Below are positions 12,126 through 41,763 of a stretch of 45,797 bases of DNA, one piece after another. Under the pieces are notes generated by a model that was not told where the DNA came from, searched no databases, and saw only the letters and a program-made list of their open reading frames with translations. Position 1 is the first letter of the stretch. Every line of letters begins with the position of its first letter. Both the position numbers and the translations under genes were made by a program. Origin of the DNA: Candidatus Yanofskyibacteriota bacterium (GTDB lineage: Bacteria > Patescibacteriota > Minisyncoccia > 2-02-FULL-40-12 > GWA2-44-9). The stretch is from positions 1-45,797 of the forward strand of contig JACPNL010000030.1 in assembly GCA_016185505.1 (NCBI GenBank), in the 5' to 3' direction.

Positions 12126-12365
12126 GCCCCCGTAGCTTAGTGGCAAAGTCCCGATAGTCAAAGCTATCGAGGATCCACGATTGTTAGTTGAAAATCAAGA
12201 GCCGCCTTAGCTCAGCTGGTAGAGCAGCACTTTCGTAAAGTGAAGGTCCGGAGTTCGACTCTCCGAGGCGGCTCTTGGTTTTCAAACAATCGGGACAACG
12301 ATTTTCCGCCAGAGGCGGATAAGCTCCAGCCGTGCACGGAAGTCCGATTCTTCCCGGGGGCTCCA
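12126..12365 (+). pseudogene. Interrupted tRNA-Gly(UCC)-like gene: 5' half 12126-12148, 3' segments about 12320-12365 with encoded CCA
   Basis: 7-bp acceptor GCCCCCG/CGGGGGC, D-arm GCTTAGTGGCAAAG, T-arm GGAAG-TCCGATT-CTTCC, U73 CCA; anticodon loop and 3' anticodon strand not found. Confidence 0.6.
12201..12273 (+). tRNA. tRNA-Thr(CGT)
   Basis: GCCGCCT/AGGCGGC acceptor, CACT-TTCGTAA-AGTG anticodon arm, CGGAG-TTCGACT-CTCCG T-arm. Confidence 0.93.
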
Positions 12366-12376
12366 TTTTAAATACT

Positions 12377-12450
12377 GCGGGTGTAGTACAGTGGCAGTAC
12401 GATTGCTTCCCAAGCAATAGACGAGGGTCCGATTCCCTTCACCCGCTCCA
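12377..12450 (+). tRNA. tRNA-Gly(CCC), CCA encoded
   Basis: GCGGGTG/CACCCGC acceptor, ATTGC-TTCCCAA-GCAAT anticodon arm, U73 CCA. Confidence 0.93.
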
Positions 12451-22871: not shown

Positions 22872-22896
22872 AAAAATCCCCTTTCGGGGATTTTTA
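22872..22896 (-). terminator. Hairpin terminator of RNase P RNA
   Basis: aaaaatccccttt-cgggga-ttttt. Confidence 0.7.
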
Positions 22897-23348
22897 ACTC
22901 TGTGTTCAATAAGCCGAGTTCTGTCTGAGACAATAATTTATCTGGGCCATACATTACTATATGGCTCTAGCGAGCTAACTTTTCGAACCATGCACTTTCT
23001 AAGTTTCCAAAGAAAGTGCATGGAACGCTGCTCTTGCACCCAAGTAAGGATTTAGCTCCGACGCTCTTACGAGGTCGGAGTCCCGACTGAAACGTCGGGA
23101 CCGTTTCACCCCGATACTTCTAACCCACCGTATCGGACTAGACTCAAAATGATTAAATCAAATTTTTGGGTTGTCTTCCTCAAGGTTGCCCTATCGGACG
23201 TCTCTGCTCGCACCTCTCACATTACTGTGGACGGGCGTTACCCGCTACCCTGCTCCCAGCCCTCTTTTAAAAAAAGTAGAGCCGGGGAATGCTCGGACTT
23301 TCCTCCCCTGCCAACTGACAGGAGTAATTGCCTAGAACACAGAACATG
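22897..23348 (-). ncRNA. rnpB: RNase P RNA, bacterial type A-like (boundaries approximate)
   Basis: Minus strand has GAGGAAAGTCCGAGCATTCCCCGGC near 5' end and CAGACAGAACTCGGCTTATTGAACA near 3' end. Confidence 0.93.
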
Positions 23349-23414: not shown

Positions 23415-24020
23415 TTAGTCATCAAATGTTAAGTGACTTATTTGTAGCTCGTCCTTGTTAGTATAATCATGAAAAAATTCTTTATAAGTTTTTGTAGTTC
23501 CGCCAGTCATTTTAATAATCAAATCTTTATCAACTAATGGATCTCTCCCTCTCCCAACATAGTCAGTTAGACTGGAGTACGGCCACCTGAAAGGTTGTTT
23601 TGGATTTTTGTGTATGTAAACCGAAAGGTGTGTCAAATAAGAATCGTCATCTACTAGTTTGGCCTTAAATCTGCCTTGAAATACGGCTCCGATGTTTTCA
23701 TACTTTTTATTAAAGTAAATACTGTATGAGGTGCATAATTTACTAATAAACTTTGAGGTAGGGAGGTTTGTTTGTTGAAGAATCAGAAAGTGAAAGTGAT
23801 TCGGCATAAGACAGTAACTTAATACCGAAAAGGACCCTTCAGGTAAAGTGCTCATCCACTTGCTCATTCCTGTCTTTTGCAACCCTAAAATTTGTTTAGC
23901 GCGTTTAATAAAAAACAAATAATCTTCCTCGTCTTTAAAAACTAGGTCTTTATTGTGCCCACGGTTATAAATATGGAAGAAACCTCCCGTATGAAAATTT
24001 TTATAATCTCGGTAGCGCAT
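23415..24020 (-). mobile_element. REP-associated tyrosine transposase (RAYT, Y1/IS200-like)
   Basis: GGFFHIYNRGHNKDLVFKDEEDYLFFIKR, YCLMPNHFHFLI (HuH), YIHKNPKQPFRWPYSSLTDYVGR. Confidence 0.9.
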
Positions 24021-26768: not shown

Positions 26769-27575
26769 TTATAATTTACTGGCTATAGCCAGAATCTTCA
26801 CGAATTCTTCTTTGTTAGTACTTGCGCCGCCAATTAAAACACCGTCAAAACCGTCATTACTCAAAAATTCACGAGCATTAACTGACGTTATGGAACCACC
26901 GTATAAATAGCGCGGTAGCGCAGTAGATTGTAGCGCGGTAGCAAGAGTTTCTTTAATCACCTCTACTGACTCAAGGGCCGATTCCGGGGTGTCGGGACGG
27001 GCGCCGGGGGTAGTGCTTATTGCCCAAACCGGCTCGTAAGCAATAATACACCTTGCCACTTCTTCGGCCGAAAGACCGGCAAAGGTATTCAAAACCTGTT
27101 CTTTGAGGAAATCCTCAAAATTATCGTCGCGAGTTTTCTCGCCTACAGCGACGATGGGCATCATTTCATTCCGCAAAACTGCTTTCAACTTTTTATTAAC
27201 CACTTCGTCTGACTCGCCTAATTTCCAGCGACGTTCAGAATGACCAACAATTACATACCTAGCTCCGAGTTTCTTGAGCATGGGACCCGACACTTCTCCG
27301 GTTAGAGCCATTCTGTCGTCTGTTGATATATCCTGCGCTCCCAATCCCGACTGATGAAGAAGATGTGATGTCTTTAAAATTTTCCCCACTTCTTCCGTAA
27401 AAACGAACGGCGGACAAAACACCAAATTCAACTCCCGCTCACTAAGAGAGCCGAGATATTCATCAACCAAATCTAAGATCTGCTCTGCTTCGGCGAGAGT
27501 GGTGGGTTGCATCTTCCAGTTAGATACTATCAACTTCTTTTTCATGGTATTTTCTCCCGATTTGTCCCCCGCCAA
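26769..27575 (-). CDS. tpiA: Triosephosphate isomerase
   Basis: VSNWKMQPTT, RYVIVGHSERR, IIAYEPVWAI, YGGSITSVNA, GVLIGGAS; likely ATG at about 27545. Confidence 0.96.
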   Translation of the reverse strand: MAGDKSGENTMKKKLIVSNWKMQPTTLAEAEQILDLVDEYLGSLSERELNLVFCPPFVFTEEVGKILKTSHLLHQSGLGAQDISTDDRMALTGEVSGPMLKKLGARYVIVGHSERRWKLGESDEVVNKKLKAVLRNEMMPIVAVGEKTRDDNFEDFLKEQVLNTFAGLSAEEVARCIIAYEPVWAISTTPGARPDTPESALESVEVIKETLATALQSTALPRYLYGGSITSVNAREFLSNDGFDGVLIGGASTNKEEFVKILAIASKL

Positions 27576-27641
27576 GGCGGGGTTGACAAATCGAGGATCC
27601 TCGATTTTCTAATCGCGCTTTGCACGAAGAAAATCGGGACA
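27556..27641. repeat. TGTCCCGAT...ATCGAGGATCCTCGAT hairpin repeat, copy B
   Basis: cccgatttgtccccc...gacaaatcgaggatcctcgat...aaaatcgggacag upstream of tpiA. Confidence 0.6.
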
Positions 27642-41650: not shown

Positions 41651-41665
41651 GTTAGAAAATCAAAA

Positions 41666-41763
41666 TGTCCCGATTGTTCCGATATAATTCTTACGAATTA
41701 TATCGAGAATCCTCGATGCCTTTGGCATCGGGACAATCGAGGATCCTCGACAAAGTCGGGACA
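41666..41763. repeat. TGTCCCGAT...ATCGAGGATCCTCGA hairpin repeat, copy A
   Basis: Contains cgatataattc-ttac-gaattatatcg, gatgcc-ttt-ggcatc and atcgaggatcctcga; flanked by tgtcccga and tcgggaca. Confidence 0.65.

Follow-up and report, generated by a model that had tools for sequence, protein, structure and literature searches.

Several classes of genetic element are known to insert into genes, or into tRNA genes in particular, in bacterial genomes. Phages, ICEs and genomic islands that integrate into tRNA genes supply sequence that keeps the gene working: they restore one end of the tRNA through an identity segment and come with an integrase. Rickettsia palindromic elements are palindromic repeats found inside the genes of a reduced genome; to our knowledge, they are not reported to carry a tRNA or to rescue the gene that they have entered. 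We also know of no BHB-type tRNA splicing in bacteria. Disrupted tRNA genes, including intron-containing, split and permuted forms, have been reviewed, and the tRNA introns of bacteria are self-splicing (PMC4390854).

The locus described here lies in a window of 45,797 nucleotides, the whole stretch of DNA that was analysed, from a Candidatus Yanofskyibacteriota bacterium (contig JACPNL010000030.1). At positions 12126-12365 of this window, a palindromic repeat cassette that carries a complete tRNA-Thr interrupts another tRNA gene. The cassette is like the REP/RAYT systems (IS200/IS605-like Y1 family) in that it belongs to a set of short, dispersed, paired-hairpin palindromes, in that the main family lacks a target duplication, and in that a Y1_Tnp gene is present. 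The repeat core occurs at 39 sites in the genome, as compared to 0 sites for the reversed pattern, and the Y1 transposase matches PF01797 with an E value of 2.5e-10. Unlike REP/RAYT, however, a hairpin here has a complete tRNA gene at its tip, and the insertion lies within the cognate tRNA gene; further, no GTAG-type foot was identified in the repeat, which has only a G..C flank preference, and transposition is something that we infer. As with the integrative elements of tRNA genes, the incoming element would supply a working tRNA sequence. Yet here a whole separate tRNA sits in the middle and the old gene is left split, and a cassette of about 150 bases without a protein gene has no room for an integrase gene. 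The interruption falls near the D and anticodon arms, as in disrupted tRNA genes, but matches no intron family and holds another complete tRNA. The presence of palindromic repeats within genes of a reduced genome recalls the Rickettsia elements, and the cassettes are MITE-like in having inverted repeats, with target duplication absent for the TCCCGA family and seen, as CCAAG, at a tRNA-Gly nest in another genome (G016). No report was found under nested tRNA genes and related phrases among 5.39 million open-access papers, a set from which subscription journals are mostly absent.

Anatomy of the split tRNA gene

All features of the locus lie on the forward (+) strand. The 5' half of the outer tRNA (12126..12148; GCCCCCG-TA-GCTT-AGTGGCA-AAG) comprises the acceptor strand GCCCCCG and the D arm and is split after G24; the 3' half (12325..12365) comprises the 3' anticodon strand, the T arm GGAAG-TCCGATT-CTTCC, the acceptor strand CGGGGGC, U73 and CCA. 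Re-reading confirmed the halves as an earlier, sequence-only reading had described them, with 7/7 pairs in the acceptor stem and 5/5 pairs in the T stem. Neither ARAGORN nor Rfam calls the outer halves. At the junction G24^C25 lies the palindromic repeat cassette TCCCGAT..ATCGGGA (12149..12297, ends approximate to 1-2 bases). It consists of hairpin 1 (12149..12171; CGATAG-TCAAAG-CTATCG within TCCCGATAGTCAAAGCTATCGAGGA), the core ATCGAGGATCCACGAT (12166..12181), the 5' arm of hairpin 2 (12178..12200), which has an AGT bulge and continues into the acceptor stem of the inner tRNA-Thr, and, beyond this tRNA, the 3' arm of hairpin 2 (CTTGGTTTTCAAACAATCGGGA; 12274..12297). The inner tRNA-Thr(CGT) is intact at 12201..12273 (or to 12274) and is the sole tRNA with a CGT anticodon found in the genome; it is recognised by both ARAGORN and Rfam (62.7 bits), and in this respect, too, the sequence-only reading, which had placed a whole tRNA-Thr inside the split gene, was correct.

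The outer gene resumes at 12298..12305 with C25, A26, the 5' anticodon strand (CA ACGAT) and the start of the loop, as compared with the genomes G083, G126, G194 and G113. A second small hairpin insert, TTCCGCC-AGA-GGCGGATAA (12306..12324, limits approximate), then occupies the outer anticodon loop, and the same insert is present in G083 and G126. In addition to this loop insert, the outer anticodon stem of the window has only 3/5 Watson-Crick pairs. The fold of the whole locus, which is closed by the outer acceptor, has an energy of -110.9 kcal/mol and lies 7.8 SD below shuffles. Palindromes can stay perfect through template switching at the DNA level, and the conserved long helix was for that reason set aside as proof of RNA function. 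No tmRNA was detected in the window by ARAGORN.

The outer gene had been taken for a tRNA-Gly(UCC). U73 and the CCA end had pointed to Gly, yet both are normal for tRNA-Thr in the clade, and a TTCC loop is absent; the stretch AAGCTCCAGCC, interpreted as a Gly anticodon arm, really forms the 3' part of an anticodon loop with the hairpin insert TTTCCGCC-AGA-GGCGGATAA. The Gly identity is ruled out by synteny. In G001, a genome of the same genus, a plain tRNA-Thr(CGT) at the corresponding place is followed 7 bases on by tRNA-Gly(CCC), and the outer halves of the window occupy the place of this tRNA-Thr, 11 bases before an intact tRNA-Gly(CCC) (12377..12450) that serves as the synteny anchor. The check for another intact tRNA-Gly(UCC), proposed along with the Gly reading, found tRNA-Gly(TCC) elsewhere in the genome, which has intact tRNA-Gly genes with TCC, GCC and CCC anticodons. 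The outer parts in G113 (GCCGAAG..GAG and CATTACTTTCGTAAAGTAG..CTTCGGC) join into a complete tRNA-Thr(CGT), and the outer tRNA-Thr(CGT) of G194 has the loop TTCG^TAA. Position and sequence identify the outer gene as the old tRNA-Thr(CGT), and its halves are probably a remnant of the resident gene. The suggestion of a pseudogene left by repeat insertion therefore stands in so far as the gene is split by a repeat, one that bears a tRNA-Thr; its status as a remnant is probable, and its identity as Gly is not retained. It should be noted that a five-nest alignment of this locus covered the rows of G173 and G113 partly and was not used for counts; both were read by hand.

The insert (12149-12297) represents a single copy of the two-hairpin palindrome TCCCGAT-loop1-ATCGAGGATCCNCGAT-loop2-ATCGGGA. 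All 17 full copies of the repeat have C as the right flanking base, and 11 of them have A after it; the left flanking base is G in 14. The tRNA junction G24^C25-A26 (GAG^CA) fits this G^CA preference. In many ordinary copies, hairpin 2 consists of a stem, an AGT or AAT bulge, a further stem and a CTTTG-like loop. The window copy keeps the stem and the bulge, and the tRNA-Thr replaces the loop, its acceptor stem extending the helix. The two-hairpin repeat also occurs at 27550-27640 and 41660-41760 of the window, the latter being two copies that run together, and at four loci (L134, L136, L143 and L148) it lies within a larger palindrome, GGATAAACGACTT..AAGTCGTTTATCC, i.e., palindromes are nested in palindromes. 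Outer Val and Pro genes have another dispersed element, of ~150 bases (GCCGGARCGATG - hairpin - CGTGAGGCGG ..), in their variable loops, and the element also follows several other tRNAs (its loci are L009, L014, L040, L053, L057, L098 and L027); it belongs to no credible Rfam family. A comparison of the repeat with viral contigs returned no exact match.

Recurrence of nested tRNA genes

A search of the window's own genome gathered 36 distinct tRNAs, each of the 36 anticodons being found in single copy, and the flanks of each were tested for matching outer halves. This yielded five matches, comprising four true nests (Thr, Lys, Val and Pro) and one spurious match, against an expectation of 0.11 with mismatched flanks, which excludes chance. 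A wider control that took in the flanks of every retrieved locus was loose (15 matches against an expected 3.3), partly because shuffled flanks still hold real outer halves, and the own-genome control is the one relied on. In total, 5 of the 36 tRNA genes of this genome are nested: Thr(CGT), Lys(CTT), Glu(CTC), Val(CAC) and Pro(TGG). The Lys and Glu tRNAs occupy hairpin 1 of the TCCCGAT repeat, each within a complete outer gene of the same anticodon; the Val and Pro tRNAs occupy other palindromes, within outer Val and outer Pro genes.

Searching with the insert recovered the same nest in G083, G126 and G173 and, more distantly, in G194. The G083 counterpart is Candidatus Giovannonibacteria MFIM01000026.1, a named GenBank record with the same architecture. 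As an independent approach, a pattern in which a tRNA D arm runs straight into the repeat, and which is blind to inner tRNAs, was applied to 384 genomes of the class. It matched in 10 genomes, of which one match was a normal tRNA-His and nine were split tRNAs, and every one of the nine repeat-split tRNAs contains an inner tRNA; the reversed control pattern had no match in the 384 genomes. About 15 more nests, several of them read by eye from flanks without individual scores, were found in other Paceibacteria, and over a dozen related species have nests. They include nests of Thr(TGT) (G138, G141, G116, G096 and G294), Thr(CGT) (G308 and G235), Gly(CCC) (G016), Pro with GGG (G012), CGG (G017) and TGG (G003 and G011) anticodons, and Lys with CTT (G023) and TTT (G032 and G043) anticodons, as well as one triple nest, in G080, of three concentric tRNA-Val. 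Wherever the outer anticodon is readable, the inner tRNA is of the same isoacceptor as the outer one. We regard the anatomy, its recurrence, this same-isoacceptor rule and the single copy number as established.

Two other arrangements were noted among the tRNA genes. At L101 (G294), tandem units of ~40 bases resembling tRNA 5' pieces lie upstream of tRNA-Thr(TGT), whose 3' half is copied downstream. In G000, tRNA-Thr(GGT), the only one seen in the genome, appears to be interrupted in its anticodon loop (C1:45322-45411 to ~45570; L189 ~523-770) by ~200 bases that have group-I-like motifs (AAGATA, GACTG/CAGTC), no inner tRNA and no match to an Rfam intron.

Origin of the nests and fate of the outer gene

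Comparison with plain tRNA genes bears on which copy of a nest is the older. The best match of the outer Lys gene (0.88) is the plain gene of G002, of the same genus, that adjoins tRNA-Arg(TCG), and the inner Lys gene is identical at 75/75 positions to the plain gene adjoining tRNA-Arg(TCG) in G020, which belongs to another genus. By these matches, the outer gene of the Lys nest is the resident and the inner one is foreign, and this, too, we regard as established. Of the two Pro genes, the outer has its nearest matches within its own family, and the inner has them in other families. For Thr, the inner type is common in the family and the outer gene resembles the other type, which is intact in G002; the direction from old to new can be read less clearly here than in the Lys nest. 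Family f32 offers a decay series for Thr(TGT): the nest in G116 retains an outer gene, that in G096 is without the outer 3' half, and G072 has only the inner tRNA and a repeat stub.

In the explanation that we consider probable, a palindromic cassette bearing a tRNA enters the one gene for the cognate tRNA, and the inner copy replaces that gene. At the locus in the window, a REP/MITE-type cassette with a complete tRNA-Thr(CGT) as the apical loop of hairpin 2 would have entered the resident tRNA-Thr(CGT) between G24 and C25, breaking the resident gene and supplying a substitute with which the cell survives. The inner tRNA-Thr would then become the sole copy and hence be locked in. It would be transcribed, presumably from the old tRNA promoter, and cut from a long precursor by the ordinary enzymes of tRNA end processing. 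The outer halves, with the second small hairpin in the anticodon loop, would be leftovers of the resident gene, and repeated insertion would give rise to nested shells. Where each anticodon is served by a single gene, disruption of a tRNA gene by a repeat should do harm if no substitute comes with it; survival only with a cognate tRNA would explain both the same-isoacceptor rule and the absence of a split tRNA without an inner tRNA among the nine. A candidate mover of the palindromes is the IS200-like Y1 transposase (RAYT type, the type that moves REP sequences) at 23415..24020 (- strand) of the window; G005 encodes another immediately upstream of tRNA-Val, and the G096 nest is directly followed by a broken one. 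We infer transposition, perhaps by the Y1 transposase, together with expression, processing and the loss of outer function, from these arrangements of sequence. Several observations stand against this explanation. The outers have better-preserved stems than would be expected of dead genes, the acceptor being perfect in most of those found. Several unrelated palindromes would each have had to catch the right tRNA, which random insertion alone does not explain. In addition, no cassette has been caught moving, and no tRNA-bearing repeat has been demonstrated outside tRNA genes. As a separate observation, the Y1 transposase gene of the window is adjoined by an RNase P RNA (class A; 22895-23343) with several insertions relative to the consensus.

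The well-kept stems would be accounted for if the outer tRNA were still made, with splicing, or the processing that releases the inner tRNA, taking out the insert so that one gene gives two tRNAs; in the processing version, the acceptor stem and the long palindrome would keep the outer pieces together. The outers of Lys in G000 and of Thr in G113 and G308 (L109), which, read without the insert, are whole or almost whole and have their stems and an anticodon, are consistent with this, as is the Pro nest of G000 and G011, from two genera, in which the acceptors covary (CGGACTG/CAGTCCG versus CGGGATG/CATCCCG). Two outer acceptor pairs of this nest have changed on both sides, and the T stem of G011 lacks six bases. 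Such covariation may mean that the outer acceptors are still selected, that the nest moved onto different residents by recombination, or that insertions occurred in parallel. However, the outers of G138 and G141 are without the 5' anticodon strand, the outer 3' halves in G116 and G032 are copies of the inner tRNA that fit their 5' partners incompletely, and the window outer has the defective stem and loop insert noted above. Further, a spare tRNA, present in 9 of 9 split genes, would not be needed under splicing, and a group I or II intron was rejected after no Rfam match was found in the window. A continuing supply of outer tRNA is, on balance, improbable. That nested tRNA genes constitute a distinct, working gene organisation, with the inner tRNA released by end processing, the outer one used in two pieces or rejoined, and both under selection, seems to us quite improbable.

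Nests could also arise by recombination between an incoming, related tRNA gene and the resident gene at repeats or short homologies, the arms being perfected later by template switching. The identity of the Lys inner gene, but not of its flanks, to a gene of another genus would fit such exchange, as would a central part shared by the window and G083 with differing outer ends and the outer 3' halves copied from the inner tRNA in G116, G032 and G235. This route is possible but unlikely, given that the cassette begins and ends precisely where the dispersed repeat does, at the target that this repeat commonly uses, and that one nest (Gly, G016) has a 5-base target duplication, CCAAG. A one-off pseudogene or an assembly artefact of no wider meaning might be suspected from the damaged outer anticodon arm in the window and from a draft genome in 32 contigs. 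Yet the same architecture recurs across numerous independent assemblies, among them long contigs and MFIM01000026.1, and in four other tRNA genes of the same genome; misassembly, which the sequence-only reading had raised, is discounted by this recurrence, and an isolated accident of either kind is hardly credible.

Proposed replacement of tRNA genes in reduced genomes

Insertion of a tRNA-bearing cassette with replacement of the resident gene would account for split tRNA remnants that are missed by annotation programs. The nests offer a direct test system for the pick-up of cargo by palindromes and raise the question of whether a cell can still use an outer tRNA into which another has been inserted. 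The results suggest that, in a tiny bacterium of the Paceibacteria type (CPR), small repeats break tRNA genes and bring a replacement along. Small repeats may in this way invade tRNA genes that a strongly reduced genome has in single copy, and yet leave the cell alive; by the same route, a tRNA gene may be swapped in place for another, even one from another genus.
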